A program made the position numbers and the translations under genes. Positions 28,121 through 54,709 of a DNA stretch of 64,000 nt are shown in pieces. The stretch's first letter is position 1. The number at the start of each line of letters is the position of its first letter. This stretch comes from Pedobacter cryoconitis. GTDB taxonomy: Bacteria; Bacteroidota; Bacteroidia; Sphingobacteriales; Sphingobacteriaceae. The DNA lies in contig NZ_JACHCG010000003.1 in assembly GCF_014200595.1 (NCBI RefSeq), forward strand, positions 248,001-312,000, written 5' to 3'. Under the pieces are notes generated by a model. It was not told the DNA's origin. It made no database searches and was given only the letters and a program-made list of their open reading frames with translations.

Positions 28121-28999
28121 ATGGGCATCCGGATAAGTTTTTTCCTTACAATATGGCAAGGTGTTTGCCTGATGTCAGTAATCTCCGATGAATTTATACT
28201 CATGTCAAATCAACTAAAAGATAATATGATTAAAAACTCTGACATTAGTGCGTTGGCGACTAATTTTCGTGAATACATCACCAGAAATAAGATCGAGGAG
28301 GAAAGGGATCAGCTGATAGAGGATTTAACTTCACGTAATCAGGACCTGAATCAATTCGCTTATATCACTTCTCATAATCTACGCGCGCCTTTATCGAATT
28401 TAATTGGTTTAATTGACATCCTGGATTATGATGTACTGGATGAATATAATAAAACAATTGTAGATATGTTCAGGGATTCTGCTTTTAAGCTGAATGAAAC
28501 TATCTATGATCTGACACAGATGCTGAGTATCAAAAGTGATAAAAGGCTGAATATAGAAAGTGTAAATATCTCTGCCGTTTTTAAAAAAGTATGCAATTAT
28601 TTTAATAAACAAATCCACAAACTGGGAATTTATATACACACTGATTTCCAATGTGAAATGGTCCCTTTCCCCAAAAGTTACCTGGAAAGCGTTCTGATGA
28701 ATTTAATGTCAAATTCAATGAAGTATTATTCTGCAAGCAGGCCGCTCAGAATTGACATCACAACCAAGCTTAATGAAGAGGGGAATATTATCATGATCTT
28801 CTCTGATAATGGCATCGGAATCGATCTTCTCCAACATAAAGACAAGGTTTTTGGTCTGAATCAACGTTTTCACAGCCATGTGAACGGAAGTGGCGTCGGC
28901 CTGTTTATTACCAAAACCCAGATTACCTCTATGGGAGGTAAAATTACGGTAGAAAGTGAGCTTGATCAGGGCTGTACATTCACTGTAACGTTCAAATAA
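28121..28999 (+). CDS. Short sensor histidine kinase without sensor domain
   Basis: A HisKA-HATPase kinase of at most 292 residues. The phosphoacceptor box is SHNLRAPLSNLIGLIDIL; the ATPase boxes are MNLMSNSMKYY, FSDNGIGIDL and GSGVGLFITK. Over the kinase core it is closely similar to the PAS kinase at 40418-41596 (KSYLESVLMNL, VFGLNQRFHSH, TKTQITSMGGK), so the two are paralogues, but the PAS domain present there is missing here. The start is uncertain: ATG at 28121 begins a hydrophobic stretch (MGIRISFFLTIWQGVCL), and ATG at 28172 (MSVISDEF) is an equally good soluble start. Signal and partner are unknown. Confidence 0.85.
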   Translation: MGIRISFFLTIWQGVCLMSVISDEFILMSNQLKDNMIKNSDISALATNFREYITRNKIEEERDQLIEDLTSRNQDLNQFAYITSHNLRAPLSNLIGLIDILDYDVLDEYNKTIVDMFRDSAFKLNETIYDLTQMLSIKSDKRLNIESVNISAVFKKVCNYFNKQIHKLGIYIHTDFQCEMVPFPKSYLESVLMNLMSNSMKYYSASRPLRIDITTKLNEEGNIIMIFSDNGIGIDLLQHKDKVFGLNQRFHSHVNGSGVGLFITKTQITSMGGKITVESELDQGCTFTVTFK

Positions 29000-29060: not shown

Positions 29061-29068
29061 TAGTTTTG
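29061..29068 (+). promoter_or_regulatory. Predicted -7 box for the fibre-like operon
   Basis: TAGTTTTG, an exact TAnnTTTG match, lies 22 bases before the ATG at 29091. It would drive the four plus-strand genes up to 32349. Confidence 0.6.
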
Positions 29069-29090: not shown

Positions 29091-29621
29091 ATGAAAAAGA
29101 CCTTACTTATTGCCGCTATATTATTAGCCGTCAGCACCATTTTTAACCTTAAAGCCAATGCGCAGGCTGTAAGTGGTAACGTGCCCCTAAGCATTGTACT
29201 CTCAGATGCATTCTCTATTACGCTCGGCCCGACTCCCAATGTAGTTTTTACTTATGCAACAGCTGCGGATTATGCAGGTAGTAAAACAGTCTTAAAAACA
29301 AACCATTTTACTGTGGTGAGTAACAAGCCATACAGCGTCGCAGTAAAAGCTGCAACAGAATTTAATGTAATTGCGGGTAATGCAACGCCGGTATCTTTAA
29401 GTGTGGTACAAGTGAGCATAGATCCGAGTACACCAACTACAGGAGCTACTTATGCTACACCTGCTTTAACAACGACTAACCAGGCACTGGTTACCGCAGC
29501 CTCAGCAACACTTGCAACTGCTTATAATGTAAATTATTCGATTCCTACTGCTGCCGGCCTGCTGGGTAAGGTCGCAGGAACCTATGCAACTAATGTTGTT
29601 TACACAGTTACACAACCTTAA
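29091..29621 (+). CDS. Secreted pilin-like subunit, copy 1
   Basis: A 176-residue protein with signal peptide (MKKTLLIAAILLAVSTIFNLKANAQ) and a small all-beta, Ser/Thr/Ala/Val-rich mature part. The mature N-terminus is an alternating hydrophobic segment (VPLSIVLSDAFSITLG) and the C-terminus is a terminal beta strand (YATNVVYTVTQP). I do not match it to a named family; the style and size are those of DUF4402/CsuA-like chaperone-usher subunits. The next gene is an almost identical copy. The C-terminal module of the 465-residue protein at 30952 is homologous (shared NHxxV...PYxVxVKA, and YxIP...AGxYxTxxxYT). Role as a surface fibre subunit is inferred from its neighbours. Confidence 0.8.
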   Translation: MKKTLLIAAILLAVSTIFNLKANAQAVSGNVPLSIVLSDAFSITLGPTPNVVFTYATAADYAGSKTVLKTNHFTVVSNKPYSVAVKAATEFNVIAGNATPVSLSVVQVSIDPSTPTTGATYATPALTTTNQALVTAASATLATAYNVNYSIPTAAGLLGKVAGTYATNVVYTVTQP

Positions 29622-29631
29622 AACGTATACC

Positions 29632-30162
29632 ATGAAAAAGAGCTTACTCGTTATCGTCGTATTATCAGCGCTTGGTACCATTTTCAACCTGAAAGCCAAC
29701 GCTCAGGCTGTAAGCGGCAACGTACCGCTAAGCATTGTTCTCTCGGATGCCTTCTCTATTACACTGGGCCCAACTCCCGATGTAGTTTTTACTTATGCAA
29801 CAGCAGCGGATTATGCAGGCAGTAAAACGGTTGCGAAAACAAACCATTTTACTGTGATCAGTAACAAGCCTTACAGTGTTGCAGTAAAAGCTGCGACAGA
29901 ATTTAATGTAATCGCTGGTAATGCAACCCCGGTATCTTTAAGTGTGGTACAAGTGAGTATCGATCCAAGTACACCAACTACAGGAGCTACTTATGCTACG
30001 CCGGCTTTAACAACGACCAATCAACCGTTGGTTACCACAGCATCACCAACGCTTGCAGCTGCCTATAACGTAAATTATACAATCCCTACTGCTGCTGGCT
30101 TAATTGGCAAGGTAGCAGGGACATATGCTACTAATGTTGTTTACACAGTTACACAACCTTAA
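29632..30162 (+). CDS. Secreted pilin-like subunit, copy 2 (tandem duplicate)
   Basis: Also 176 residues, and the mature part differs from copy 1 at few positions, e.g. PNVV versus PDVV and VLKTNHF versus VAKTNHF. The signal peptide differs more (MKKSLLVIVVLSALGTIFNLKANAQ). The open frame extends upstream into copy 1, but the ATG at 29632 is the true start because it begins the signal peptide and gives exactly the same length. Ten bases separate the copies; the DNA unit repeats at 541 bases. Same presumed role as copy 1. Confidence 0.8.
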   Translation: MKKSLLVIVVLSALGTIFNLKANAQAVSGNVPLSIVLSDAFSITLGPTPDVVFTYATAADYAGSKTVAKTNHFTVISNKPYSVAVKAATEFNVIAGNATPVSLSVVQVSIDPSTPTTGATYATPALTTTNQPLVTTASPTLAAAYNVNYTIPTAAGLIGKVAGTYATNVVYTVTQP

Positions 30163-30167
30163 TCGGC

Positions 30168-30983
30168 TTGATGAGGATACTTACTGGTTTATTCATCCTA
30201 TGCCTTGCCATGACGCTGCCAGACCCGGCGAAAGGGCAGGGCTTTTCAATTTCACCTGCCAGGATCTTCCTGACAGGAAATCCAGGAGAGACGGTTAGCC
30301 AGACAGTCACCTTTGGGAATACTTCGGCAGGTGTGTTATCTTTTGTAACCAGAATACAGGATTGGAACAGAGATTCACTGGGCACTAAAGTCTATTATGA
30401 TAGCAATACGCTGCCCTTATCTAATGCCAGCTGGCTGACGCTTTCGTCAAATAATGTTGCTGTACAGCCTGGAGAAAATAAACAGGTCAATGTATCAATG
30501 ACTATTCCTGCGAATGCAGATAAGCTTACTACGAGCATGCTTTTTTTTACGCAGGTGAAAGAACAGGGGGCACAGCAAAAAAGTGTGGCCAAGGTTGGTA
30601 TTAACGTATTAATGGAGGTCGGGATACAGGTTTATTATGTGCCGCGCGGACTAAATCCGGGAGAGCTTGAATTTCTGTCTTTTGATGACCGTGGGGTCTA
30701 TGACAATGGAAGGGCCAAAAGCCGCAGACTCGCTTTAAAGATACATAACAAGGGAAACCTGAATAAAGATGCATTTATCCGTTTCGAATTAACCAATAAA
30801 GAGACGGGCGAAGAAATAAAAATTAAGCCTGAAGTACTGGCTATGCTGCCTGATGCCACACAATGGGTCATGGTTGATTTACCAACAGATTTAAAGGGAA
30901 AATTCCTGGCTGTTGCTTTACTGGATGCTGGTTCTTCTTATGATTTGAAAGTTGCTGAAAAAGAGATTATATACCGCCCTTAG
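30168..30983 (+). CDS. Putative PapD-like periplasmic chaperone
   Basis: A 271-residue secreted protein (MMRILTGLFILCLAMTLPDPAKGQ signal). The N-terminal domain (about 25-150) reads as a PapD-type Ig fold: FSISPARIFLTGNPGETVSQ, then VTFGNTSAGVLSFVTRIQDW, then SSNNVAVQPGENKQVNVSM, followed by a strand before GINVLMEVGIQVYY. This is the order in fimbrial chaperones (strand A1 with xxSPxRI, NxS, PGExQxV). A second beta domain (about 160-271) follows. It lies 5 bases after subunit copy 2 and overlaps the next subunit gene by 32 bases. The chaperone role is inferred from fold-like pattern and neighbours; canonical Arg/Lys anchor residues need structural checking. Confidence 0.68.
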   Translation: MMRILTGLFILCLAMTLPDPAKGQGFSISPARIFLTGNPGETVSQTVTFGNTSAGVLSFVTRIQDWNRDSLGTKVYYDSNTLPLSNASWLTLSSNNVAVQPGENKQVNVSMTIPANADKLTTSMLFFTQVKEQGAQQKSVAKVGINVLMEVGIQVYYVPRGLNPGELEFLSFDDRGVYDNGRAKSRRLALKIHNKGNLNKDAFIRFELTNKETGEEIKIKPEVLAMLPDATQWVMVDLPTDLKGKFLAVALLDAGSSYDLKVAEKEIIYRP

Positions 30984-32349
30984 TGTTATTTTTTGCTGTT
31001 TTACAGTCGGGAATGTCAATGCGCAATTGGTCATCAATCTGCCTGAAGCAAATATTTCAGGACAAACAAGCTATGTAGTCAATTTAAATAGTGGCGCATC
31101 TCCTTTTTTAAGTCTGTTAACTGCAATCAATGTGAATGCAGCCGGTACAACTTTAACATCAACACCCAGTACTTTACCTGCCATTCCGCTTGCCCCCAAC
31201 CTGATCAACATGAAGGTAACTTCAATTGGAGGTGTAAATATTCTTTCAGGTGCAAATCCGATTGTACTGTCCAGTGTATCTCAAAATATTTATTTCGTAG
31301 CAGTTGGTTTATTAAGTGGCACTATGCTTGTCGATTATACGGTTTCTCCTTTGAATGTAGCCTGGGCAGCTGGAAGTTATGCAACAACATTAACCTTTAC
31401 CGGCAGTATTACCCCGCCAACACCAACTCTGACACTTAATGTTCCTGCTTATATTACTTTAAATACATTGGTTCCGGCTACAACGACATTGAACGTCAAT
31501 TCGTTTGCCATTTTCAGAAGCGTAGCAGGAGTCAGCGCAGTATCTGGAAATGATTATTTTACGACTGTACCAACTTTATTCAGCCTAAGAGCAAGCAGCG
31601 CCAATTTCACTTTCACTACTACCCAGCCTTATAATCAATTGCCGGCAGCAAATAGTGTAAATTTAATGGGCGCAGCGCTGTCAGGAACCTATGCGGGTTC
31701 AGCAATTAACCTTTCTGCGAGTGATCAGCTATTGACCGTGGCTACCGGAATTCCTGTCGTTGTAACCAATAAAAGCGTACTGTCTTCTACCTTAAGTATC
31801 AGCGGAGCCAATCTTAAAAGTAATTTTGTACAGGCAGGAACTTATACGGTACCGGTAGTTTATACGCTCGCTAAAACAGCGTCCTCCTTCCCTGCAACCT
31901 TAGCTTCACAAACGATGAACAGTTCTGTTCAGGTGAATGTCAGTAACCTGATGGAGTTGATTGTTCAGGATCCCAGTGTAACGCTAACAGTCAATACAAC
32001 TGCAAATTATCAGCAGGGAGTAACCACTACCAGGCCGAACCATGTTAAAGTAAGCAGTACCGTTCCTTATAACGTAACTGTAAAAGCAAGCAGCAGTGTT
32101 TTAAGCTCTTCCGGGGGCGTACAAATACCTGTTGGAGTAATTACTCTTGAAGGAATGACGGGCCAGACCGGGATCACGCCAATTGTACTCTCTGCCAGTC
32201 CGCAGACAATCATTACTTCTGCCAATCCTACAATCGACCGCCTGCTTAATTTACAGTATCGCATCCCTTCTGCTCAGACCTCTAATCTGCTGAATAAAAC
32301 CGCAGGAAGTTATAATACAACCATTACTTATACCATTGTAGCACCTTAA
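30952..32349 (+). CDS. Large multidomain secreted subunit, possible tip adhesin, TTG start
   Basis: A 465-residue protein. The reading frame opens at TTG 30952, giving a complete signal peptide (MLKKRLYTALSVIFCCFTVG then NVNAQ); no ATG could replace it without losing the signal. It overlaps the chaperone gene by 32 bases. The mature protein is Ser/Thr/Ala/Val-rich beta structure in about three modules (roughly 25-165, 170-325 and 330-465). The last module resembles the small subunits (RPNHVKVSSTVPYNVTVKA; AGSYNTTITYTIVAP). By position and size it could be a tip or anchor subunit of the fibre. The stop abuts the stop of the convergent barrel gene with no gap. Confidence 0.75.
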   Translation: MLKKRLYTALSVIFCCFTVGNVNAQLVINLPEANISGQTSYVVNLNSGASPFLSLLTAINVNAAGTTLTSTPSTLPAIPLAPNLINMKVTSIGGVNILSGANPIVLSSVSQNIYFVAVGLLSGTMLVDYTVSPLNVAWAAGSYATTLTFTGSITPPTPTLTLNVPAYITLNTLVPATTTLNVNSFAIFRSVAGVSAVSGNDYFTTVPTLFSLRASSANFTFTTTQPYNQLPAANSVNLMGAALSGTYAGSAINLSASDQLLTVATGIPVVVTNKSVLSSTLSISGANLKSNFVQAGTYTVPVVYTLAKTASSFPATLASQTMNSSVQVNVSNLMELIVQDPSVTLTVNTTANYQQGVTTTRPNHVKVSSTVPYNVTVKASSSVLSSSGGVQIPVGVITLEGMTGQTGITPIVLSASPQTIITSANPTIDRLLNLQYRIPSAQTSNLLNKTAGSYNTTITYTIVAP

Positions 32350-35193
32350 TTAAAATCTGCTTACGGTAACTTTCCGGCGCTGGTCATGGTACAGGAAAGT
32401 CAGCATACCAACCGGAATTCCCTGAAGGGAGACTTCTTCTTTTTCATTTTCAATGGAAAATGGCATCCCCGCAGTCTCAATATAAACGGTATATTTATTT
32501 CTTGGCAGATAGAAACAGAAATTCCCCTGATCGTCTGTTAAGGTCTGGTGAATGCGGCCATTTGGATCTGCTGCATTAATCCTGATGCCTGCAAGTACTG
32601 GTGCCCCATCACCGTATTTTTCTGCTTTCAGCTTCAGACAGCCATTCAGGGCTTGTGTTTTTACTAAAGGAATTTCCAGCTTCTTACTTTTATCCAAAAA
32701 TACAACTGTAGGATCTTGCAAACTCCACCCCCTGGTATTGGTCACCGTAACGGTATAGGCTTCTTTTTTCATATCCTTAAATTCTACGATACCTTTACTG
32801 TTGGTCAGGGCAGCTTCTCCATTGATTTTTACTAATACACCAGCAACCGGTGCTTCTCCGGGGTCACGCTGCCCGTTACTGTTGTGATCTTCATAGTAAG
32901 TGAGCAGTAGTCTTTTTGTACCTGATCCGCCCTTTGCACCAAATTGTTTCTCTACACCGAATCTCAATTGTCTGTTTTCGAAATATAAATTATCAATGCT
33001 ATTGACGGTATTCGGAACCGGGTTATAAACTGGAATGGGCTGCTTTTGCCTGGTTATCGTATATTGAAGGTCACTGGTGAGTGCCCAGTTTCCTTTCAGC
33101 AGGTATCTTATATTGCTGTTCACGGAGTAATTATTACTGTGCGTGAAGCCATAATAGTTATACATTCCGCCCAAACGGAAATTCAGGTTATTTTGTAAGG
33201 CTTCAAAGTGTATGTTTGGGCCAAAAGAATATAGCCGGTATTGATTAGTACCGTTCGAAGACAGAATATCTGAAATATAGTACGGATTTAATTGAATATA
33301 ACTGCTGAATCCAAGAATTGGCAGGTTATAACTGGTATTGATTTTAACAGAATGAAAGGGGGCCGTTGGTCTTTCTGAGGTATTCACATAGGTGTAACCG
33401 TAGTCAGCGGTCATGGAGAAACTATGTATGCGCCCACTGTAAGCTAAATTCGCGCTAAAACGCATCGATGAGGATCTCCAGTCTGCGTTAGCACCAAACT
33501 GATCTGTCACCGCAGAGGTAATCAAGTGCTGATCCATAAAATAAGGCCCGAAGCCGATAAAAACATTTCCTGCCCTGGTATTAAATCCCAATTCATAAAT
33601 GTATATCGCATTTTTATTAATCCCGGTATTAAAGATATTATTCAGCTCATATTGATACTTTGGACTATTTACCTGCATACTAAAATGAGCGGCAAAACTA
33701 TTGTCGTTTTCAAATTTTCGGGTCAGACGGAGGTCTGTCAGTAACAGGCCACGTCTCAATCCTGTAAAATACGGCGTGCTGTAATAGCCGCTTCCGGCAA
33801 ATTGATAAGTAGTAGTGTTCAAGGCATAATTCATCCCCGCAGAAGCGCCTTGCCTGGCTGAAGAGTTCATCTTGTTTTGCCCTTCTAATGAATAGCCTGC
33901 TTCAAAGTCTAAAAGCTGCCCTTTGCCGATATTCACGCCAGCTTTCATACTCAACTGATTGGCATCAATACCAGTAAAAGAATCGCGGCTATGTATATAA
34001 GTGAGCCGCCGGTCTCCTCTGGTATCGGGAGTAGCCAGGTTATAATCAACGGCCAGAATTTTTGCGCCGGAGATTGTCGTATTGATCTGATCATACAACA
34101 GGAAATTATTCTGGATGCCATAGACAGACAATACGCCGTTATCTTTCATTTTCAGACTCCCTTTTATCCCCCTGCCACCCAAAGAAAAATCTATGTTCTC
34201 ATAAATATTACCCACTTTAACCCCCCAGCTTTTAGCCTGGTAATCTACATAAGTATTATAAATATTAATTCCGTTTACATCTTGCTGATGATACTGGTCA
34301 GCATTTAACCGGTACTCGAGTGATGCATTATCTCCGGTTTTCACTTTCCCATTCGCTTGTAATTGATAAAAAGATGAATTGCTGCTCAAACTGGCATAAC
34401 GCAGTGCAATAGTATTAGACAGACTACCTGCATATTGATCGCTGCCCATACTCATTCTTCTCGCATTGGTCACGTTTACAATCCGGATCATTTTAACTGC
34501 CAGTGGATGATTACCGGCATCTACCGCCTGAATAGTCACAGTAAAATCTGCGGGTATACGGTTATTTATTTTGTTCCTGGCCAAAAAAGGAAGTAATTGC
34601 TGGGTTCCGGGTTGCAGCGTCAGGTTCATGGTTTGTCCGATAAATTCCAGTCCGTCAGGAATACCTGAAAGGAGCAGTCTGAAGGTAATGGGTACAAAGC
34701 CGTTATTTGCGCAGCGCACGACAACCTGTGCCTGGTTACTGAGCTGGCCTAAATAAACTTCATCTTCTTCTGTACCGATAGTCAGGCCACCGACGTCAGT
34801 GAGCTGAGTCTGGAATGCCGCCGATTTTTGTACCTGAATACGTGGATTTGAGGCAGTCAGGTGAACCGTAAAGATCTGACTGTTGTTATTAATAGTTTGC
34901 CGGTCAGCGATATATTTTAACGGAAAAACTTTGCTCTCCCCTGCTTTCAGCACCAGGCTGTCTGGTAATGAGATTAAGCCTCTGGTCAGCGGTTTTTCTT
35001 TCCGGTCTTGCAGCAGGGTTACAGTTTCTTTTTCAAAATTTGTGATCTTTAACAGGTTAGAGAAGGTTTCACCCCCTTTTATTTCCAGGGTATCCCGTGT
35101 GAAGCCATATTTTACCTGAGCTGATACATTAAATCCGGCCACACAGCAAAGAATCAAATAAAATATCTTCAAATAGCCGGTTTTATGCATCAT
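32350..35193 (-). CDS. Usher-like outer-membrane barrel with Ig-like and SdrD/CnaB-like domains
   Basis: A 947-residue secreted protein (signal MMHKTGYLKIFYLILCCVAG ending ...NVSAQ). Residues about 25-115 and 115-240 look like two Ig-like beta domains (IKGGETFSNLLKITNFEKET; NGFVPITFRLLLSGIPDGLE). About 245-735 is a long series of alternating aromatic strands typical of a beta-barrel. Then come a SdrD B-like domain with the calcium-loop phrase YEDHNSNGQRDPGEAPVAGV (near 755) and a CnaB/carboxypeptidase-regulatory-like domain (DDQGNFCFYLPRNKYTVYIE) at the end. N-domain, barrel and two C-terminal sandwiches is the plan of fimbrial ushers, though I see no direct usher (PF00577) motif and no plug could be located by eye. 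Convergent with the subunit operon. Confidence 0.7.
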   Translation of the reverse strand: MMHKTGYLKIFYLILCCVAGFNVSAQVKYGFTRDTLEIKGGETFSNLLKITNFEKETVTLLQDRKEKPLTRGLISLPDSLVLKAGESKVFPLKYIADRQTINNNSQIFTVHLTASNPRIQVQKSAAFQTQLTDVGGLTIGTEEDEVYLGQLSNQAQVVVRCANNGFVPITFRLLLSGIPDGLEFIGQTMNLTLQPGTQQLLPFLARNKINNRIPADFTVTIQAVDAGNHPLAVKMIRIVNVTNARRMSMGSDQYAGSLSNTIALRYASLSSNSSFYQLQANGKVKTGDNASLEYRLNADQYHQQDVNGINIYNTYVDYQAKSWGVKVGNIYENIDFSLGGRGIKGSLKMKDNGVLSVYGIQNNFLLYDQINTTISGAKILAVDYNLATPDTRGDRRLTYIHSRDSFTGIDANQLSMKAGVNIGKGQLLDFEAGYSLEGQNKMNSSARQGASAGMNYALNTTTYQFAGSGYYSTPYFTGLRRGLLLTDLRLTRKFENDNSFAAHFSMQVNSPKYQYELNNIFNTGINKNAIYIYELGFNTRAGNVFIGFGPYFMDQHLITSAVTDQFGANADWRSSSMRFSANLAYSGRIHSFSMTADYGYTYVNTSERPTAPFHSVKINTSYNLPILGFSSYIQLNPYYISDILSSNGTNQYRLYSFGPNIHFEALQNNLNFRLGGMYNYYGFTHSNNYSVNSNIRYLLKGNWALTSDLQYTITRQKQPIPVYNPVPNTVNSIDNLYFENRQLRFGVEKQFGAKGGSGTKRLLLTYYEDHNSNGQRDPGEAPVAGVLVKINGEAALTNSKGIVEFKDMKKEAYTVTVTNTRGWSLQDPTVVFLDKSKKLEIPLVKTQALNGCLKLKAEKYGDGAPVLAGIRINAADPNGRIHQTLTDDQGNFCFYLPRNKYTVYIETAGMPFSIENEKEEVSLQGIPVGMLTFLYHDQRRKVTVSRF

Positions 35194-35249
35194 AGTTCAT
35201 GATAAAAAGCATAGCTCCCTTGCAGGACAAGGAATAGCCAATTGATTTT

Positions 35250-35855
35250 TTATTTGAATTGAGCAAGCAGCTCACCTTTACTGTTAATATTCAGTTTTTT
35301 ATAGGTTCTTTTGATATACTGACGTACAGTATCTAAGGAGATTCCATATTTATAACCTATCAATTTATAACTCAGTCCATTTTGAAGGCCTTCTACGATC
35401 TGGCGTTCTCTATAGCTTAATTTGGATTGATAGTCTATGGTATACTGTACTTGCTGAATTACATTCCGCGAGATAGAAGGGCTGAAAACAGAGCCTCCGC
35501 GATAAGTAGTTACAATAGTAGAAATCACATCGTCTACACAGGTGTCTTTAGTCAGATACCCCATGGCCCCGGCCTTTACGCAAGCCAGCACCGTGTTATG
35601 GTCTTGAATATTACTGTAAACAACTACGTTTGTATTTGGAAATTTCCGGTAGATATCAGGAATGACATCAATTCCGTTGACTTCGATGTCAAGCAGGGTC
35701 ACATTTGGCTCCTGAGAGGGTTGTACTTTTTTACATTCCCCCATGGATCCTATGTCGAGGGTTACCTTTAAATTATGCTGATGCTGATGATTTAGCATCA
35801 CGCGCATCATATTTCTGCTCTGTTGATTGATATCAATAATTCCGACTTTGATCAT
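35250..35855 (-). CDS. NarL/FixJ-type response regulator
   Basis: A 201-residue regulator: receiver domain (about 1-120) with phospho-Asp near 56 (VTLLDIEVNG), and the usual YLTKDT segment with Lys near 100, then a LuxR-type helix-turn-helix (about 135-195, LSYRERQIVEGLQNGLSYKLIGYKYGISLDTVRQYIKRTYKKL). It is the only DNA-binding regulator in this part of the window and lies 56 bases upstream of the barrel gene on the same strand, so it is the obvious candidate to control the fibre-like locus; no cognate kinase is adjacent. It has an AAGGAGGGG Shine-Dalgarno sequence, rare in this phylum. Confidence 0.93.
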   Translation of the reverse strand: MIKVGIIDINQQSRNMMRVMLNHQHQHNLKVTLDIGSMGECKKVQPSQEPNVTLLDIEVNGIDVIPDIYRKFPNTNVVVYSNIQDHNTVLACVKAGAMGYLTKDTCVDDVISTIVTTYRGGSVFSPSISRNVIQQVQYTIDYQSKLSYRERQIVEGLQNGLSYKLIGYKYGISLDTVRQYIKRTYKKLNINSKGELLAQFK

Positions 35856-38265: not shown

Positions 38266-38655
38266 CTATAAATTTTCTAGAATTTCCAGAAACTTTTCTT
38301 TCACTAAGGGCTTGATTATAAATTCACAAACTTCGTCTATATTTTTTGATCTCTCCATTTCATGCGGGGAGATAGAGGAAGAGACAATATAGAGTTCGTT
38401 TCTCTTCACAAAAGAAGGGTATAATTCCTGGTATTCAGCCAAAAACTCCCATCCATCCATAACTGGCATATTCAGGTCCAGAAAGATAACATCCGGCAGA
38501 AGTTCCTTTTTATCCTGGATTTCTTTCAGATGTGTAATCGCTTGCAGTCCATCTGAAAAGACTTCTACCTCCACATTTTCAGAGACTTTCAGCATTGTTT
38601 TTTTTGTAAGAAATACAAAAATATCATCATCATCGATGAGGTACACTTTTTTCAT
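38266..38655 (-). CDS. Single-domain CheY-like response regulator
   Basis: A 129-residue receiver-only protein. I start at the ATG at 38655 (MKKVYLIDDDDIFVFLTKK); the longer frame from 38727 runs into the kinase gene and adds no homologous sequence. The acidic pocket is LIDDDD and the phospho-Asp is at about 60 (VIFLDLNMPVMDGWE), with Thr/Ser and Lys positions in YIVSSSIS and IIKPL. There is no output domain, so it acts by protein contact or as a phosphorelay shuttle. The start codon shares one base with the upstream kinase stop (TAATG), giving tight coupling to that kinase. Confidence 0.93.
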   Translation of the reverse strand: MKKVYLIDDDDIFVFLTKKTMLKVSENVEVEVFSDGLQAITHLKEIQDKKELLPDVIFLDLNMPVMDGWEFLAEYQELYPSFVKRNELYIVSSSISPHEMERSKNIDEVCEFIIKPLVKEKFLEILENL

Positions 38656-40163
38656 TACCAATTCATATTTTGATTTATAAATTCTATAGAAAAAATAGAA
38701 CCCTGGTCCGGAAGACTTTCCACCCAAATTTTACCTCCCATGGCTTCCACCTGGGTTTTAGTCATAAATAATCCAAGGCCTTTTGCATCAGGATGGCGGT
38801 GAAATACCTTTCCAATTTTAAAGATATTGTCTTTATGTTTAACAAGGTCTATACCCAATCCATTATCCTGAACAGTCAGCACAATATTTCCCTCCTTCAT
38901 TTTAGAGGCGAGGTTCAGTGACAGTTGTCTTTCTGGCGACTGGTATTTAATTGCATTACTGATCAGGTTATAAAAAATACTTGCCAGATATTTATGCGGA
39001 TATAATACTGCTGGTGCATCTTCAAAGTCCACCCTGATTTTTGCTTTTGCTTTCTGGATCTCGACATAGAGTCCGTCAAGTGCTTCCTGAAGACAAGTAC
39101 TAAAGTTCAGCCTGTCCAGTTTAATATCTCTGTCTAATCTGATCTGTATAGATTCTACCAGCTCATTAAATGTACTTTTCAGATTTTCTATGACAGGTTC
39201 GAGTTTGGAAACCAGCATTTTCTGCTCTTCAGCATCTTCGGCTTCCTGTATAAACTCTGCCAGCATCGCCATATTAATTAACGGCCCGCGTAAATTATGG
39301 GAAACTACATTACAGAAATCTATCAGTTGTGTATTCTGAATAGCCAGCTGCTCCATAATCAGCGTTTGCTTTTCTTCCAGTAGTTTTCGTTCCGTAATAT
39401 CTATTCCAAAACCAATCACCATAATGAAATTCCCCTTTTCATCATGCATAGGGAACATCCTTCTTAAAAAGGTGATATTATTTCCATCAGGGTCTTTCTG
39501 GCTTTCTTCCCAGCCTATCGCCTTTCCGGTATTCTTTACTTCAAGGAACTGTGCTCTGCGCGCTTTCGCTATCTCCGGATCACGGTTCCTGAAAGCACCA
39601 TATTCAAAGTCATCCTTTCCTATAATGAACTTTCTGTATTCTTCATTTTTAATCGCCATTGGATTGGCAAAAAGATACTTATGATCAGCGTCAAATACAA
39701 CAATATCCTGCGGAATATTATTGAGAATACTCTCATAAAATTCTTTAATACTATTATTAATGACAGGAAGTTTGAGTTGTAACAAACTGGCTACCTGCTG
39801 TGCAAGCAGGGCAAGCCCCTTATGCTGGTCCTGATTTAGTGTAATTTGTTTCGGGCCGGCCACACTTAAATGTCCAATAACCAGATTCTTATTCACAACT
39901 ACAGGTATAGCGATCAGAAACGGGAATATGTCGTTGATCGAATTGTCTCTGGGAGTTTCAGTCAGGTCAATACCCAGTTTTGCTTTATACCATATCCGGT
40001 TATTATCAACAAAAGTGATAGCCGAAACCGGTGCCTGTGTAATAATAGCAGCAAGTTTGACGATATTGTCAAACTCCTGTTCTTCACCAGTATCCAAAAT
40101 TTCCAACACATAAAGCGCAGCAATTCTGTCAGCTTCATTCCTAAGTGATGGGATATTAATCAT
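38655..40163 (-). CDS. GAF-PAS sensor histidine kinase
   Basis: A 502-residue soluble kinase. The N-terminal GAF-type domain (about 1-130) begins PSLRNEADRIAALYVLEILDT, the same family as the hybrid kinase at 18197-20971. A PAS domain lies at about 140-260 (QDIVVFDADHKYLFANPMA). The phosphoacceptor is in CNVVSHNLRGPLINMAML; the ATPase boxes are VQDNGLGIDL and KGLGLFMTK. The coupled receiver 38266-38655 is the likely target. A TAGCTTTG box lies 31 bases upstream. Confidence 0.93.
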   Translation of the reverse strand: MINIPSLRNEADRIAALYVLEILDTGEEQEFDNIVKLAAIITQAPVSAITFVDNNRIWYKAKLGIDLTETPRDNSINDIFPFLIAIPVVVNKNLVIGHLSVAGPKQITLNQDQHKGLALLAQQVASLLQLKLPVINNSIKEFYESILNNIPQDIVVFDADHKYLFANPMAIKNEEYRKFIIGKDDFEYGAFRNRDPEIAKARRAQFLEVKNTGKAIGWEESQKDPDGNNITFLRRMFPMHDEKGNFIMVIGFGIDITERKLLEEKQTLIMEQLAIQNTQLIDFCNVVSHNLRGPLINMAMLAEFIQEAEDAEEQKMLVSKLEPVIENLKSTFNELVESIQIRLDRDIKLDRLNFSTCLQEALDGLYVEIQKAKAKIRVDFEDAPAVLYPHKYLASIFYNLISNAIKYQSPERQLSLNLASKMKEGNIVLTVQDNGLGIDLVKHKDNIFKIGKVFHRHPDAKGLGLFMTKTQVEAMGGKIWVESLPDQGSIFSIEFINQNMNW

Positions 40164-40417: not shown

Positions 40418-41596
40418 ATGGTTATGAGACAAAACTTTAGGTGGCAGGAAAGACACAACACTGAGGATATGATGGGGTACGCTGAAAAGAATAAAAACTT
40501 TCTCACGATCATTGAAAAATGCAACGAACTAATATTTTTTACTAAAAAAAACGGCGACTTTATTCATGTTACCACCGCTGCTGAACAACTATTCGGTTTT
40601 AGCAATCAGGAGTACGCCGGATTCAACCTGACGGATACTGTACATCCGGAAGAGCTGAATCATACCAGGGAAAGGCTTCAGCTTGTACTTTCTTCTCCGG
40701 GTGCGAATGTTAATTTGAAATTCAGAAGCAGAACCAAACAAAACGAGTACCGCTGGATAGAAGGTGTAGTTACCAACTTATTAGAGGAGAGTATGCAGGC
40801 GCTAATGTTCAGATTTAATGATATTACAGACCGGGTAAATGATGAAAATGAACAGGCCTTGCTGCTTCAGGATTTTACCAAAAGAAATCAGGATCTCAAT
40901 CAGTTTGTTTATATTATATCCCATAACCTGAGAACACCTCTTGCCAATTTGATAGGCTTGATTAATATTCTGGAAACCGATCTCCTGGACGACTACAACA
41001 AAGGTATTGTGGACTTGTTTAAATGTTCTACAGACAGGTTAAGTGAGACGGTATTTGACCTTACCCATATTTTGACCCTGAAAGACAATCAGGGTGTAAA
41101 AATCACGAAAGTTAATGTGCAGAAAACATTTGAAAAAGTATGTCACTCGTTTAATGAACAAATTAAACAGCTTGGTGTGATCCTGACCAGTAATTTTGAT
41201 TGCACATATATACATTTCAACAAAAGTTATCTGGAAAGTATATTGATGAATTTGTTGTCAAATGCGATTAAATACCGCTTGCAGAACAGACAGCTTGAAA
41301 TCAATTTAAACCTAACCATGGATGAGCACAATAACTGTACACTGCGTTTTTCGGATAATGGAATGGGTATTGACATGAATGTCAACAAAGACAAGCTCTT
41401 TGGTCTTCATCAACGCTTTCATAACCATATTACCGGGAATGGAGTGGGCTTGTTTATTACGAAGTCACAGATTACCTCTATGGGCGGAAATATCGAGGTT
41501 CAAAGTGCAGTAAATGAAGGAACGACTTTTACCATTACTTTTAAGGGCGAACCTGTTAACTTGTTAAACCAGAACCACCAGCCTGTCCTACAATAG
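40418..41596 (+). CDS. PAS sensor histidine kinase
   Basis: A 392-residue soluble kinase. A PAS domain (about 28-145, FLTIIEKCNELIFFTKKNGDFI, ending FRFNDITDR) precedes the phosphoacceptor box SHNLRTPLANLIGLINIL, then ATPase boxes MNLLSNAIKYR, FSDNGMGIDM and GNGVGLFITK. The kinase half is a paralogue of 28121-28999. Start at ATG 40418, or ATG 40424 two codons later. Its last 41 bases overlap, tail to tail, the opposite-strand PAS gene. Confidence 0.9.
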   Translation: MVMRQNFRWQERHNTEDMMGYAEKNKNFLTIIEKCNELIFFTKKNGDFIHVTTAAEQLFGFSNQEYAGFNLTDTVHPEELNHTRERLQLVLSSPGANVNLKFRSRTKQNEYRWIEGVVTNLLEESMQALMFRFNDITDRVNDENEQALLLQDFTKRNQDLNQFVYIISHNLRTPLANLIGLINILETDLLDDYNKGIVDLFKCSTDRLSETVFDLTHILTLKDNQGVKITKVNVQKTFEKVCHSFNEQIKQLGVILTSNFDCTYIHFNKSYLESILMNLLSNAIKYRLQNRQLEINLNLTMDEHNNCTLRFSDNGMGIDMNVNKDKLFGLHQRFHNHITGNGVGLFITKSQITSMGGNIEVQSAVNEGTTFTITFKGEPVNLLNQNHQPVLQ

Positions 41597-44409: not shown

Positions 44410-46344
44410 TTAAGATTTTACGTCCAGATCCTCGAAGATTGAGTTTTTGCTCTTATATTCTTTAACCAGGTCTTTCATCAGGGTAACTACTTGCAGGTCA
44501 TCACATCTTTTAGCGTGTTCTATCAAAGCATAGATCTGAAGCTGAATTTCATCGAATGCATATTCTCTTACTTTACCAATCATGATCTTTTCATGATGCG
44601 TAGGCATCGTATTCTCATTATCATTCAATAACTCTTCAAATAGTTTCTCTCCCGGTCTCAATCCAGAGTATTCAATCTGAATATCCTGATTAGGTACAAG
44701 CCCTGCCAGTTGAATCATCTTTTTAGCCAGGTCAACAATCTTTACAGATTTCCCCATATCAAAGATAAAGATCTCCCCGCCATCTCCCATACAACCAGCC
44801 TCCAGTACCAAACGGCACGCTTCAGGAATCGTCATAAAATAACGGGTAATCTCCGGATGGGTAACCGTAACAGGCCCTCCTTTTTCAATTTGCTGTTTAA
44901 ACCTTGGGATCACTGACCCATTCGAGCCTAAAACATTTCCAAAACGGGTAGTAATAAATTTAGTGATCGGTTTAATATCAAGTTCATTGATATAACTTAA
45001 CCCGTTACTGAAAATATGATCTTTATGGTGCAGGGAATTATTCAGCGATTGTACATAGATTTCGGCAATCCTTTTAGATGCTCCCATTACGTTTGTAGGG
45101 TTCACTGCTTTATCTGTAGAAATCATTACGAATTTCTGAACGCCGTACTTTACTGCCTTGTCAGCAATAGTTTTTGTGCCCAGTACGTTGGTTTTAATCG
45201 CTTCACAAGGATTATCTTCCATTAGTGGTACATGTTTGTATGCACCGGCGTGATAGACGTAGTGAGGCTTAAAAGTACTGAATAGATGTTCCATCCGTTT
45301 TTCATCACGTACGTCACCAATAAAAGCATGGAAATTCTGGTTTTTTGCTGTTTCAGTTAGTTCCAGGTACAACTCGTGAAGTGCCGTTTCAGACTGATCA
45401 CATAAAATAATCAACCCTACTTCAAATTTCGTCAGCTGACGAACGATTTCACTTCCGATTGATCCGGCAGCGCCAGTAATCAGAATACGTTTATTCTTAA
45501 GCTGATGCCCGATTCCCTCAATATCGATATGAATAGATTTCCTGTCCAACAGATCTTCGATATTAAGTTTTTTGATTTGAGTAGGCTGTAACTTCCCGTC
45601 CGTCCATACATTAGGAGGCGGAATGTTTAATACTTTAATCCCGTTTTCCAGGCAAACATCGATAATTTGATTCTTTCTCTCTTTAGGAATAGTGTACGAT
45701 GCAAAAATAATTTCATCAAGCTGATGCTCAACAATCAGGTTCACGAGATCTTTAGCATCAAGAATTTTTATCCCGTCAATCGTTTTACCCATCTTCCGCT
45801 GATCGTCATCTACAAAGGCAATGATATTTTTATTGACATGAGGATCATGGTCAAAGGTTCTTTTAGTAGCGACGCCTGCTTCACCAGCCCCATAAATCAT
45901 AACCCTGATCTTGTCGAGCTTTAAGTTTTTGATATAAATAAAGAAATATTTAATCAGAACACGGTAAGTAATTAATAAAAGAAAGCTTGACAGACCGTTG
46001 ATGATTAATATACTATTAGGAATAATAGCATTATTACCGGTAGCAACAAAAGCCATATTAACCAGAAAAAAAGTACTGTTAATAACAATTACTGCATATA
46101 GAATCCGAAAAGTATCTTGCGCACTTGTATATCTGATGATTCCAGAAAAAGTCTTAACCTTTAAAAAAACCAACGTACTGATTACAGTAGTCACCAATAC
46201 ATTCCTGCTAAATTCTACATAATCTAATGTAGAAAGATCAAAATTTCTTTTGATTAGGTATGCCAATGTTAGCGATATAAAACATATCGTTAAATCAAGC
46301 GTAAATATTATCCATCTGGGTACTATGTTTATCTGACTGAACAA
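44410..46344 (-). CDS. Membrane UDP-sugar 4,6-dehydratase (CapD/WbpM/PglF type)
   Basis: A 644-residue polysaccharide-biosynthesis protein. Four N-terminal membrane helices (about 10-140) precede a first Rossmann unit (IYGAGEAGVATKR) and a second, catalytic one (ILITGAAGSIGSEIVRQL). The active-site segment STDKAVNPTNVMGASKR has Met in place of the usual short-chain dehydrogenase Tyr, as in the WbpM/FlaA1/PglF dehydratases. The expected product is a UDP-4-keto-6-deoxy sugar. It starts at TTG 46344; no ATG is available near the first helix. A TAAATTTG box lies 23 bases upstream. It ends the main cluster, convergent with the methyltransferase. Confidence 0.92.
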   Translation of the reverse strand: MFSQINIVPRWIIFTLDLTICFISLTLAYLIKRNFDLSTLDYVEFSRNVLVTTVISTLVFLKVKTFSGIIRYTSAQDTFRILYAVIVINSTFFLVNMAFVATGNNAIIPNSILIINGLSSFLLLITYRVLIKYFFIYIKNLKLDKIRVMIYGAGEAGVATKRTFDHDPHVNKNIIAFVDDDQRKMGKTIDGIKILDAKDLVNLIVEHQLDEIIFASYTIPKERKNQIIDVCLENGIKVLNIPPPNVWTDGKLQPTQIKKLNIEDLLDRKSIHIDIEGIGHQLKNKRILITGAAGSIGSEIVRQLTKFEVGLIILCDQSETALHELYLELTETAKNQNFHAFIGDVRDEKRMEHLFSTFKPHYVYHAGAYKHVPLMEDNPCEAIKTNVLGTKTIADKAVKYGVQKFVMISTDKAVNPTNVMGASKRIAEIYVQSLNNSLHHKDHIFSNGLSYINELDIKPITKFITTRFGNVLGSNGSVIPRFKQQIEKGGPVTVTHPEITRYFMTIPEACRLVLEAGCMGDGGEIFIFDMGKSVKIVDLAKKMIQLAGLVPNQDIQIEYSGLRPGEKLFEELLNDNENTMPTHHEKIMIGKVREYAFDEIQLQIYALIEHAKRCDDLQVVTLMKDLVKEYKSKNSIFEDLDVKS

Positions 46345-46366
46345 GATTTTATATTTTAATAATCCA

Positions 46367-46374
46367 CAAATTTA
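46367..46374 (-). promoter_or_regulatory. Predicted -7 box for the 4,6-dehydratase gene
   Basis: The minus strand reads TAAATTTG, an exact TAnnTTTG match. A TTG lies 15 bases further upstream, a little close to fit the -33 element. The start would be about 17 bases before the TTG codon at 46344. Confidence 0.55.
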
Positions 46375-46401
46375 ATCAAAAAATCATACCAAGTTGAAAA
46401 T

Positions 46402-46513
46402 ACCTATTTTCATTTATTAAAACATCAAAATAGATATATTACTATTTGATCAAATAACATCAAAATAGGTTAAAAACATAACACAAAAACCTATTTAAAT
46501 TTTCTATTTAAAT
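46402..46513. repeat. Cluster of CTATTT/AAATAG words in both orientations upstream of the dehydratase
   Basis: Within 112 bases the word CTATTT occurs four times (46403, 46442, 46491, 46504) and its complement AAATAG twice, the last two inside exact repeats of AACATCAAAATAG at 46421 and 46457. ACCTATTTT and AAAATAGGT form an inverted pair, and CTATTTAAAT is repeated directly. The DNA is very AT-rich, so some matches are expected by chance. Confidence 0.55.
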
Positions 46514-46617
46514 AAAAAAATCTTAAAAATATAATTTCGGTTTTAAAAGCATATCCATGAAATTTCAAATCTATGACCTAAATAATGAACATTTTATTAG
46601 TCCACTGTCTGCTAAAA

Positions 46618-48210
46618 CTAAAAATCTTTATAAATATTTCTAAATGAAGAACGAAGACCTATAGTAAAAAACCGTTGTTTGTCAATGTATTCACTATTGC
46701 TTTCTTTTCTATAAGTCGCATCAAATTCTAATCTTAAGTTATTTTTAGGATTTAGTAAATATCCAAATTTTGCATCAGCAAAAAGGAGTTTAGTTTTTAA
46801 ACCATGACCTATATTCACTCCGTAATCATCAACACGGGTAGTATAAGGCTTATAAATATCTTTCCCATAATTGAGACCATTTATATCTAAACCGTAAGTT
46901 GCTGAAGTTAACTGTAATCTGACATCAAATCTTTTGTACCTATAACTAACAATACCAAGATACTCTGCAAAATTTGCCCCAAACGGATGAGCTAAAGGTT
47001 GATTATAATGCCCATAATTTTTGTAATGATCTAATGCTGAATAAGAATAAGGCCTTACTCTATTCATTTCAATCTGAGCACTTAGATTTTTGACTTTAAA
47101 AATATCAAACCCCTTAATTCCAAGTTGTCCGCCTTGTTTATTAGCCCAATATCCTGTATTCGCAAAGACTTCTTTAAAAGTAAATTCATTGATCATTAAT
47201 TGTCCGTAAGCCACATAACGATCCGCTATTTTATAACTGGCATTAAATCCAATCAGCGCTTTATCAGGAGATCCGTTTGCATATTCAGTTGGTCTCATAA
47301 ACATTACGGGATTTACATAACTAAAATCAAAACCTCTTGGCTTCCACATAATATTTTCAAACAAGCCCAGGCTTAATCTTTTAGTAGCATTCCAGCTTAA
47401 ATAATGGAACAGACCATATTTCTTCGGAAAAGGGGTTTCATCATCAAATGGCGTTTCGTTAAAATCGATAAATTGAGCCCACATAGCCATATAACGAACA
47501 CTACCTAAGGTTGCTGTTACCTTGAAGAATGGATAATTAAATGAATTATCTGATAATAATAAAGATCTGTAACCGTCTCCGATAAAGTTTTTATCATATC
47601 CTAATTGGAAATTCACATATTTCGATGGCGTATACGATAATGTTCCTCCTGAATAAGCATAATCAAATCCTCCTGTACCGTAAGTTTTTGCATATCCCTG
47701 CCCGGGAACAACTCTGTTAGTAGTAATATAATCAGTAATATAACGGGCAAACTTCCCCTGATTTTCATAAAAATGGCTTGTAAAAGAGAATTGTTTCCCT
47801 ATTTTACCTCCTAATTCAATACCACGTGTATTGAGCCAGATTGTATTACTTCCTTGCCTGCCAATTTGCATATCAGGAAGAAAATCAAGGTAAAATGAAT
47901 AATCTTTATCATTGACTTCTACAAGGTGCTGTTGAAAAATCTTCCTAAACAACCAATTTTTATTCTGCCAATCTTTCTCAAGCGGCATTACACTTTTTAA
48001 TATACTGTCTTTACCAAGACTGTCTATATCACTTGCAATATAAGGGAGCAGGGATGTATGAATCCGTTTAGAATTATTAAAATATATATCTTTCCCCAAT
48101 TTATTATTAAGATCATGATCAATCGGTAATAATTCAGACTGACCACTAGCCTTATTAATTATTAACGCAAAGAAAATGCAGCAGACCAATCTAAGTTTCG
48201 TACAGTTCAT
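46618..48210 (-). CDS. Wzi/RemB-like outer-membrane barrel protein
   Basis: A 530-residue secreted protein (signal MNCTKLRLVCCIFFALIINK ending ...ASGQ). The rest is a chain of aromatic-rich alternating strands with the phrases QFSFTSHFYENQGKFARYI, GLFENIMWKPRGFDFSYVNP and HPFGANFAEYLGIVSYRYKR, matching the capsule-assembly Wzi fold and the Flavobacterium gliding/surface protein RemB. Expected to anchor or organise the surface polysaccharide made by this cluster. The TAACTTTG box just upstream makes it a separate transcription unit. It is not a TonB receptor: no plug or TonB box. Confidence 0.85.
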   Translation of the reverse strand: MNCTKLRLVCCIFFALIINKASGQSELLPIDHDLNNKLGKDIYFNNSKRIHTSLLPYIASDIDSLGKDSILKSVMPLEKDWQNKNWLFRKIFQQHLVEVNDKDYSFYLDFLPDMQIGRQGSNTIWLNTRGIELGGKIGKQFSFTSHFYENQGKFARYITDYITTNRVVPGQGYAKTYGTGGFDYAYSGGTLSYTPSKYVNFQLGYDKNFIGDGYRSLLLSDNSFNYPFFKVTATLGSVRYMAMWAQFIDFNETPFDDETPFPKKYGLFHYLSWNATKRLSLGLFENIMWKPRGFDFSYVNPVMFMRPTEYANGSPDKALIGFNASYKIADRYVAYGQLMINEFTFKEVFANTGYWANKQGGQLGIKGFDIFKVKNLSAQIEMNRVRPYSYSALDHYKNYGHYNQPLAHPFGANFAEYLGIVSYRYKRFDVRLQLTSATYGLDINGLNYGKDIYKPYTTRVDDYGVNIGHGLKTKLLFADAKFGYLLNPKNNLRLEFDATYRKESNSEYIDKQRFFTIGLRSSFRNIYKDF

Positions 48211-48215
48211 AAAAG

Positions 48216-48223
48216 CAAAGTTA
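48216..48223 (-). promoter_or_regulatory. Predicted -7 box for the Wzi-like gene, leaderless geometry
   Basis: The minus strand reads TAACTTTG, an exact TAnnTTTG match ending five bases before the ATG at 48210. Confidence 0.55.
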
Positions 48224-48266
48224 TATTATTCAGGATAATTTATTGTGTTATGTGGATTAAAAGAAC

Positions 48267-49232
48267 TTAATCTCCAATTAGTCTTGTAGAACCCTCAACA
48301 GCAAACCTACATACCAGGAAAATTATTGTAGTAAATATTAAAAATAAGAAAAATATAAAAATAGTATGTGGCATCCAAAATATAATTAAAGCATTTATAG
48401 CTAACTGAGCACTGGCGTAAATCGCAGAGATCGCTAAGTGAGGTATTTTTTTTTCATTAGCCCAATATTGATAAAAATGGCTTCTATGTGCCTCAAAAAT
48501 ATTTTCTTTCCGTATCAGCCTAAAAAATATAGTAGTAATCGTATCTAATCCATATAAAAGAAGAAATAGTAGATAACTAAAATCTTCTGTTTTAATAACT
48601 ACCAGAAGCAAAAAGAAAAGAATAATGAAGGCTATGCCAACACTTCCGACATCACCAGCAAAACACTTAGCTTTTTTCCTGAAGTTGAAATAATTAAATA
48701 CAAGAACTGAGATAATTGATGTGATTAAAAGATCAGTTGTAACAAATTCTACAATATAAATATTGACATAAAGTAATGTACAAAGTGTTATTAACGCATA
48801 GGAGCCTGTAATTCCGTTAATTCCATCCATAAAATTAATTGCATTAATACTTCCGATTACAAGTATTAATGCAAGAATTATCCAGAATATAGAAAGATTG
48901 AAAAGGTCCAGCTGATAAAATAATAGCGCTACAGCAATCAAATGGAATGCTATCCTTATTTTATTGCTAACGGGCTTTATATCATCTACGAAGCTTATAA
49001 ATGAGATGATACCTAAACCTAAAAGGAAATAACCATATTCAAATCCAAAATAAAGAGGATATAACAAGAGTGCAATAGAAAAAATGATCCCTCCACCTCT
49101 TAAGGTAACATTACTGTGTGAACTTCTATGATTAGGCTGATCAATAATATTAAATCTACCAGCTATTTTAAAATAGAGCAGTTCAGCTAAAAATAGTACA
49201 ATAAATCCTGTAAGTATTAACATTAAATTCAT
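48267..49232 (-). CDS. WecA/WbpL-type sugar-1-phosphate undecaprenyl-phosphate transferase
   Basis: A 321-residue enzyme with about ten membrane segments, of the MraY/WecA family. The catalytic loops are SFVDDIKPVSNK (Asp-Asp), NAINFMDGINGI (NxxNxxDGxxG), GDVGSVGIAFI and the C-terminal His motif EAHRSHFYQYW. It starts repeat-unit assembly by transferring GlcNAc-1-P or a related amino sugar phosphate to the lipid carrier. The neighbouring epimerase (10 bases upstream) suggests that the sugar transferred is produced by it, as in WbpL/WbpV-type pairs. Confidence 0.9.
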   Translation of the reverse strand: MNLMLILTGFIVLFLAELLYFKIAGRFNIIDQPNHRSSHSNVTLRGGGIIFSIALLLYPLYFGFEYGYFLLGLGIISFISFVDDIKPVSNKIRIAFHLIAVALLFYQLDLFNLSIFWIILALILVIGSINAINFMDGINGITGSYALITLCTLLYVNIYIVEFVTTDLLITSIISVLVFNYFNFRKKAKCFAGDVGSVGIAFIILFFLLLVVIKTEDFSYLLFLLLYGLDTITTIFFRLIRKENIFEAHRSHFYQYWANEKKIPHLAISAIYASAQLAINALIIFWMPHTIFIFFLFLIFTTIIFLVCRFAVEGSTRLIGD

Positions 49233-49242
49233 GAAGTATAGG

Positions 49243-50145: not shown

Positions 50146-50153
50146 GATTATTA

Positions 50154-51305: not shown

Positions 51306-51319
51306 TAAAAATGTATCAG

Positions 51320-54706: not shown

Positions 54707-54709
54707 GTT

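Follow-up and report, generated by a model that had tools for sequence, protein, structure and literature searches.

Organization of the Putative Fiber Locus

The DNA stretch under study (the window) comprises 64,000 nucleotides of a Pedobacter cryoconitis genome (contig NZ_JACHCG010000003.1, positions 248,001 to 312,000), and it carries between positions 29091 and 35855 a gene cluster that probably directs the assembly of a thin surface fiber by a chaperone-usher-like route. To our knowledge, chaperone-usher pili have hardly been described in Bacteroidota. No publication on this locus was found by title or abstract in the literature on chaperone-usher systems of this phylum, which was covered in part, and the accessible portion of PMC4793230 leaves the chaperone-usher pathway out. 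The locus contains the following genes and features.

29091-29621, plus strand: putative small fiber subunit 1, 176 residues (open reading frame, subunit family alignment A7, profile match to PDB 9ikk and 9ikj)
29632-30162, plus strand: putative small fiber subunit 2, a tandem duplicate of subunit 1
30171-30983, plus strand: two-domain periplasmic chaperone, PapD/WxLIP-like (AlphaFold2 model, fold search, HHalign with E. coli chaperones)
30594-30635, plus strand: putative G1 donor strand, chaperone residues 142-155 (model, alignments)
30952-32349, plus strand: larger secreted protein, 465 residues, three tandem subunit-like modules (HHalign of its three parts)
31924-32346, plus strand: last of the three subunit-like modules, residues 325-465 at the C terminus of the larger protein (HHalign)
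32350-35193, minus strand: 947-residue outer membrane barrel protein, putative usher-like assembly platform (open reading frame, model, fold searches)
32380-32919, minus strand: two C-terminal beta-sandwiches of the barrel protein, SdrD_B and CarboxypepD_reg, residues 759-938 (Pfam, model)
32938-34422, minus strand: barrel domain, residues 258-752, about 26 strands, no plug insertion (model, barrel alignment A2)
34162-34212, minus strand: conserved hairpin GN-x-x-EN-(x)-GRGIK between barrel strands 5 and 6, residues 328-344
34474-35115, minus strand: two immunoglobulin (Ig)-like periplasmic domains of the barrel protein, residues 27-240 (model, profile comparison)
35250-35855, minus strand: receiver-LuxR response regulator, upstream of the barrel gene and in the same direction (Pfam)

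All of the genes were found where an earlier note on this DNA, made from the sequence alone, had placed them, and the convergence with zero gap that it described was confirmed by the stop codons of the 465- and 947-residue genes, which abut (CCTTAATTAA, window positions 32346-32353). For several loci of Sphingobacterium, an overlap of the two convergent stop codons follows from the end coordinates. The two small proteins, which that note had called near-identical and secreted, showed 90% protein identity and 85.6% DNA identity; their signal peptides, as those of the other proteins, were assigned by eye without a predictor. The start of subunit 2 is the ATG at 29632, and the start at 29584 of the open reading frame list is an in-frame ATG further upstream. 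The gene and the two-domain fold reported for the chaperone stood, and its length was corrected from 271 to 270 residues (from the ATG at 30171; 271 if counted from the TTG at 30168). The gene of the larger protein starts with a TTG at 30952 and overlaps the end of the chaperone gene (30983), and the LuxR regulator that had been noticed next to the barrel gene is a receiver-LuxR response regulator according to Pfam. In the whole source genome, the barrel and the chaperone had one match each and the subunit had three (the two subunits and a module of the larger protein); the usher profile had no match in this genome, and the barrel had none among plasmids. Within Pedobacter, to which the source genome belongs, the window chaperone is 97% identical to that of Pedobacter sp. 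UYP1.

The Chaperone Is a Relative of PapD

The AlphaFold2 model of the chaperone (predicted local distance difference test (pLDDT) 87.6) showed the two-domain PapD fold that had been suspected from its sequence pattern, and the fold search and the profile homology to E. coli chaperones agreed with it. The HHalign value of the chaperone profile against the E. coli chaperones went from 95.7 to 90.7 once the signal peptides were cut, and the match was kept. In Pfam, the protein was just over one cut-off, that of Cep192_D3 (27.8 versus 27.0 bits), which is a general PapD-like Ig match. R31 aligned with the cleft arginine of PapD/FimC, which we take to be R8, and it was present in all 62 sequences of the chaperone alignment A1 (window included) and in 20 of the 26 sequences of the wider set A3. 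The invariant cleft lysine, presumably K112 in the same numbering, was absent, with glutamine (Q153) in 62 of 62 sequences of A1, which argues against membership in the chaperone-usher family; at this position, the wider set A3 had 12 glutamines, 12 lysines and 2 histidines. In the putative G1 donor strand, residues 142, 144, 146, 148, 150, 152 and 154 were hydrophobic in the 62 sequences of A1 and residue 147 in 61 of them, the pattern being looser in A3, and the model contained a strand from residue 149 with an unstructured region before it. The G1 motif GIQVY corresponds to GIKLY in relatives and to RIKLYYRP in FimC. Taken together, the profile match, the fold, the cleft arginine and the hydrophobic donor strand indicated a genuine relationship of the chaperone to PapD.

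In the fold search, the structure closest to the chaperone model was WxLIP, the WxL partner of Gram-positive bacteria, a model-based refinement that the earlier note did not consider. The Pfam model of WxLIP (PF06030, WxLIP_PGBD) did not match the window chaperone, and it was over its cut-off for members of the chaperone family in genomes G355, G161 and G243, which are three of the five genomes over this cut-off. No C-terminal membrane helix was found on the chaperone, either in the sequence or in the model. Because the chaperone is intermediate between PapD and the WxL partner of Gram-positive bacteria, it becomes possible to test whether the two surface systems share an origin.

Small Subunits, TLP Fibrils and the Larger Protein

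Profiles were built from the subunit family (A7, 36 sequences), from 15 distant subunits that form a subset of it (A10), and from the larger proteins (A9). Against the PDB, A7 matched 9ikk (TLP-2) at E 2.2e-6 and 9ikj (TLP-1) at E 6.4e-6, with the next match at 0.40, and these two were the only entries listed for A10 (E 0.0087 and 0.032) and for A9 (E 0.065 and 0.12). The group C subunit profile (A8) had no TLP match in the PDB, and searches of the PDB with single sequences did not find TLP either (best E 0.92 in one search, none in another). The alignment was limited to residues 5-73 of TLP, at the N-terminal end of chains of 236-237 residues. The N-terminal strand of the subunits was hydrophobic at positions 33, 35 and 37 (35/36, 36/36 and 36/36 sequences), never at 32 and 34, and in half of the sequences at 36. 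Judging from these profiles, the subunits are homologous to TLP-1 and TLP-2 over their N-terminal half, which contains the presumed donor strand; the TLP chains are longer and match over the above residues only.

PDB entries 9ikj and 9ikk contain 16 chains each, and we take them, by their name and chain number only, to belong to the CryoSeek pond-water study of Wang et al. (2024), which is said to be the source of TLP-1. In TLP-1, the Ig fold of each protomer n is reportedly filled in by the N-terminal strand of protomer n+4, and the hydrophobic pattern of the subunit N-terminal strand described above corresponds to this. As far as the literature was accessible, neither the genome from which the TLP fibrils come nor their assembly genes have been identified, and the locus would provide, in the genomes of cultured species, a gene set for this fiber class known only from a structure, solved by electron microscopy.

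Both small subunits lack Cys and Trp. In Pfam, no family scored better than E 0.0048 for the 36 members of A7, no pilin family was found for the subunits, which is a further argument against chaperone-usher membership, and neither the small nor the larger proteins had anything over the Pfam or NCBIfam cut-offs. The CsuA/DUF4402 type considered for the subunits in the earlier note did not hold up, as PF14352 did not match the window subunits at E 10 or the 36 family members at E 0.1. Two other candidate relationships were rejected after removal of the signal peptides: the HHalign match to 16 E. coli K-12 pilins dropped from 50% to 1.1%, and that to a set of 15 small subunits of the f23 loci and three of loci L078 and L079 (both described below) dropped from 93.8% to 1.4%.

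The three parts of the larger protein matched the subunit family in HHalign with probabilities of 95.3, 95.5 and 99.8 (no reversed control), which confirmed the homology of its last module to the small proteins, as noticed before, and extended it more weakly to the other two modules. In the first module, the alignment with the subunit family began only past the N-terminal strand, which would fit a fiber tip with no need to donate a strand of its own, and the 465-residue protein is likely to be a tip or an adaptor.

The 947-Residue Barrel Protein

The model of the barrel protein (pLDDT 77.9, predicted template modeling score 0.50) contained N-terminal Ig-like domains, a barrel and two C-terminal sandwiches, and together with Pfam it confirmed the architecture that had been read from the sequence. 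SdrD_B and CarboxypepD_reg, near the C terminus, were the only matches over the Pfam and NCBIfam cut-offs. The count of about 26 strands and the strand numbers were made by eye on the model; the last strand ends at F751, which is invariant in A2. Several results argued against the barrel being a member of the usher family. No domain-sized insertion that could represent a plug was found between the barrel strands of this moderate-confidence model. The search with the usher profile PF00577 proposed in the earlier note gave no match for the barrel, and none of the 296 Bacteroidota genomes had a PF00577 match over the cut-off, the E. coli control being positive. Moreover, profile-profile comparison of the barrel with seven K-12 ushers gave nothing above the reversed control.

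The N-domain of the barrel protein was similar to a pair of Ig domains of the chaperone type, and not to the K-12 usher N-domain. It matched the window-type chaperone profile with 77% and 81%, and four other pairings gave 8.6%, 2.2%, 31.8% and 1.5%. These values suggest a weak relationship of the N-domain to the chaperone, which is to be taken only as a lead.

Conservation of the Gene Cluster

The chaperone alignment was scanned over named genomes, which yielded 30 loci from the genera Pedobacter, Sphingobacterium and Parapedobacter. A subunit gene adjoined the chaperone gene in all 30 loci, and the larger protein and the barrel were present in 29 of them, the exception (L027) stopping at a contig edge. 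Because these loci were chosen by the chaperone alone, the recurrence of the cluster in 29 of 30 is far beyond chance. A LuxR homolog was found in 27 of the 30 loci (on the opposite strand in L013). The histidine kinase encoded at 28121-28999, before subunit 1, occupied the same place in 10 Pedobacter loci only, and therefore it is not a core gene.

A second search, with the barrel, over 151 genomes of the order matched 37 genomes at 53 places, many of them through the C-terminal module only, and 18 regions were fetched, the closest matches being left out. A barrel of the window type was present in 16 of the 18 regions, and the chaperone and a subunit adjoined it in 15 of these 16 loci. The genes are thus found together across the family and beyond, which answers a question raised in the earlier note. 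The remaining one of the 16, L071 (6762-7937), contained only a 392-residue piece of the barrel, with no chaperone or subunits found beside it, a remnant that suggests decay of the system in some genomes.

The split of the system into two convergent units, also claimed before, was valid for Pedobacter, Sphingobacterium and Parapedobacter, where the barrel gene was convergent in 29 of 29 loci, but not for the more distant loci, where all of the genes were co-directional in 13 of 15 cases, with the order subunit-chaperone-tip-barrel in 12. Because the co-directional arrangement prevails in the distant loci, a local rearrangement seems to account for the convergent split. The two distant loci that deviate, L073 and L074, have the chaperone gene on the opposite strand.

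A third search, with the wide chaperone profile A3 over the 296 Bacteroidota genomes, matched 45 genomes at 53 places, a tally that includes five places from four genomes in giant open reading frames of more than 1,500 residues, where the match is probably to Ig repeats without a relationship to the chaperone. The chaperone gene was present in all 32 regions that were fetched, and an open reading frame longer than 750 residues lay within 1.6 kb of it in 27 of them, or in 31 of 36 when L079 and L091-L093, which had been chosen otherwise, are added; this is a criterion of size and not an identification of each frame as a barrel, the nearest such frame in L079 being a different protein from the barrel. 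The five chaperones without such a frame were those of four f17 loci and one at a contig end that cuts off the barrel. The f17 loci (L140, L141, L144 and L145) contain the same chaperone family without a large neighbor within 1.6 kb; there it is seemingly used alone and may serve another job. In two genomes of genus g14 (G161 and G243), 11 and 12 subunit-family matches per genome were observed, several of them in tandem, which suggests a variety of fibers.

Further Chaperone-linked Loci in Bacteroidota

At the f23 loci (L091-L093, L142 and L147-L153), genes for small secreted proteins lie together with those for a related chaperone and for a barrel of 994-1491 residues. The three sub-threshold PF00577 matches in the 296 genomes were all of this type and all beside the related chaperone. 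As a group, the f23 barrels matched the K-12 ushers in HHalign with 74% over 216 columns (reversed control, 0.3%), and of the single barrels compared with PF00577, that of L092 matched at E 3e-4 and that of L091 did not match at 0.1. The f23 chaperones are homologous to the window chaperone (HHalign probability 97.3) and gave 29% against K-12 chaperones without signal peptides, and the f23 and window barrels share a C-terminal SdrD_B-type module; the f23 loci differ from the window in their small subunits and in the weak usher homology of their barrel. A by-eye labeling of the f23 subunits as DUF4402-like was withdrawn because all seven subunits compared with the Pfam model stayed below its cut-off, the best E-value being 0.068. 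True DUF4402 subunits were found only at L078 (6778-9980) and L079 (1054-8438), together with an SdrD_B-bearing barrel, and L079 has a PapD_N-like chaperone (E 5e-4, below the cut-off). It seems therefore that Bacteroidota possess another, divergent type of chaperone-linked locus, in which the barrel is a remote usher; this type differs from that of the window and is missed by Pfam.

A Probable Chaperone-Usher-like Assembly Route and Its Alternatives

From the gene association, the fold and homology of the chaperone, the modeled topology of the barrel, the subunit-TLP homology and the hydrophobic strand patterns, we infer a scheme of strand exchange, export and regulation. The subunits would reach the periplasm via their signal peptides, where the 270-residue chaperone would supply its long G1 strand to the unfinished Ig fold of each subunit. 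The periplasmic Ig-like N-domains of the barrel protein may then receive the chaperone-subunit complexes, and the N-terminal strand of each newly arriving subunit would displace the chaperone strand, perhaps aided by the two C-terminal sandwiches, while the growing fiber would be threaded out through the barrel pore. The three-module 465-residue protein would be placed at the tip or as an adaptor, and the LuxR regulator may govern the barrel gene.

The view that the locus works like a chaperone-usher system has good support. As in the Fim, Pap, Csu and Caf1 pili, there is a PapD-like chaperone with a donor-strand-like G1 and the cleft arginine, a hydrophobic-patterned N-terminal strand in the subunits, a large outer membrane pore flanked on both sides by periplasmic domains, and a clustered gene set with a multi-module protein as candidate tip. 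The window proteins differ from those systems in that the barrel has no PF00577 domain, no plug, about 26 strands in the model and a chaperone-like N-domain, the chaperone has glutamine instead of the cleft lysine, and the subunits are unrelated by sequence to the 16 K-12 pilins. The locus is therefore not a member of the chaperone-usher family by its defining protein, the usher, nor by the cleft lysine, the plug or pilin homology. In agreement with the earlier proposal of an analogous or distantly homologous system, which the chaperone fold and homology, the gene co-occurrence and, by E-value though not by template modeling score, the Foldseek ranking of the barrel (see below) supported, it is best read as a chaperone-usher-like pathway that occurs in several families of Bacteroidota and uses an assembly barrel of a new kind. 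If it makes a fiber, several families of this phylum have such pili with a different export barrel, missed by standard annotation. More tentatively, it might represent a third donor-strand fiber route, in which a PapD/WxLIP chaperone is combined with an independently evolved, plug-less barrel of about 26 strands and a fused chaperone-like N-domain, a route that would link the chaperone-usher and WxL/WxLIP systems and assemble orphan fibrils of the TLP-1/TLP-2 type.

Alternatively, the barrel could be a genuine usher whose plug was lost and whose sequence has drifted too far for profiles to recognize, the locus being a remote branch of the known family, which we regard as conceivable although somewhat doubtful. 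In Foldseek, FimD and PapC came first by E-value and were aligned over nearly the whole length of the barrel model, and the most conserved hairpin of the barrel, GN..EN.....GRG[IV]K, recalls the usher pattern GD.......FD[SG]..FRG, present in four of the seven K-12 ushers. The f23 loci, a second Bacteroidota type with a related chaperone and a weak usher match, point in the same direction, but their barrels match that of the window in the common C-terminal module only. Usher barrels have 24 strands, as compared with the approximately 26 of the model, and neither the K-12 usher comparison nor the VIA search, in which MtrB was the best match, favors this possibility.

An unlikely alternative is a Gram-negative counterpart of the WxL clusters, in which the chaperone would be a permanent structural partner, bound at the cell surface to small and large WxL-like proteins, and the barrel would only anchor or export the complex, with no long fiber. 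As far as PMC10599100 was accessible, a WxL cluster consists of a small protein, a large protein with a C-terminal module matching the small one, and a two-Ig partner, and the gene make-up of the window locus equals it; the best fold match of the chaperone and its WxLIP_PGBD-positive relatives also fit. However, the WxL domain (PF13731) was found in none of 198 Bacteroidota genomes, the source genome included, with a positive Lactococcus control, and the window locus has no WxL domain or motif, no Trp in its subunits, no membrane helix on the partner, an outer membrane barrel in place of the Gram-positive wall, and subunits that match the 16-chain PDB assemblies.

It is also quite improbable that the fiber operon merely adjoins the gene of an unrelated porin, receptor or exporter and that its subunits leave the cell by another route. 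The structure comparisons leave room for it: the template modeling scores of FimD and PapC (0.25 and 0.29) were lower than that of BtuB and did not separate ushers from TonB receptors, and in the VIA lists, from which families outside the listing are not thereby excluded, porins and TonB receptors scored level with ushers. Some named homologs are, moreover, labeled as TonB-dependent receptor or MSCRAMM family protein. A TonB receptor or plain porin, although not excluded by these scores alone, was rejected because the barrel has no plug and no family match, carries periplasmic domains at both ends in the model, and accompanies the chaperone at 29 of the 30 named loci and at 15 of the 16 more distant ones; the best Foldseek E-values were those of FimD and PapC and not of TonB receptors.

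Type V fimbriae (FimA, Mfa1) arise from lipoprotein precursors and are not known to use a chaperone or usher. A self-assembling fiber of this type, or of the TasA-like one, is very improbable for the window locus: type V fimbriae are surface fibers of the same phylum thought, in the accessible parts of PMC4789730 and PMC5789003, to use strand exchange, but the window subunits have no lipobox Cys, no Pfam family match among 36 members, and a dedicated chaperone adjoining them.

Upstream Signals and Neighboring Genes

The sequence TAGTTTTG at 29061-29068, 30 bases before subunit 1, fits TAnnTTTG, which we take to be the Bacteroidota -7 box, and a pattern search upstream of subunit 1 found no -33 box matching it. 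A sigma-70 scan gave 20 hits versus 15.0 expected, and a terminator scan 11 versus 6.2; neither was used. Histidine-kinase-like proteins and a single-domain response regulator, recognized by eye, are encoded near the locus at 28121-28999, 38266-38727, 38655-40163 and 40418-41596. Further downstream, the region 44410-63584 has a low GC content (33-35%) and contains polysaccharide genes, whose products, also named by eye, include glycosyltransferases and UDP-GlcNAc 2-epimerase-like, flippase-like and DegT-like proteins.
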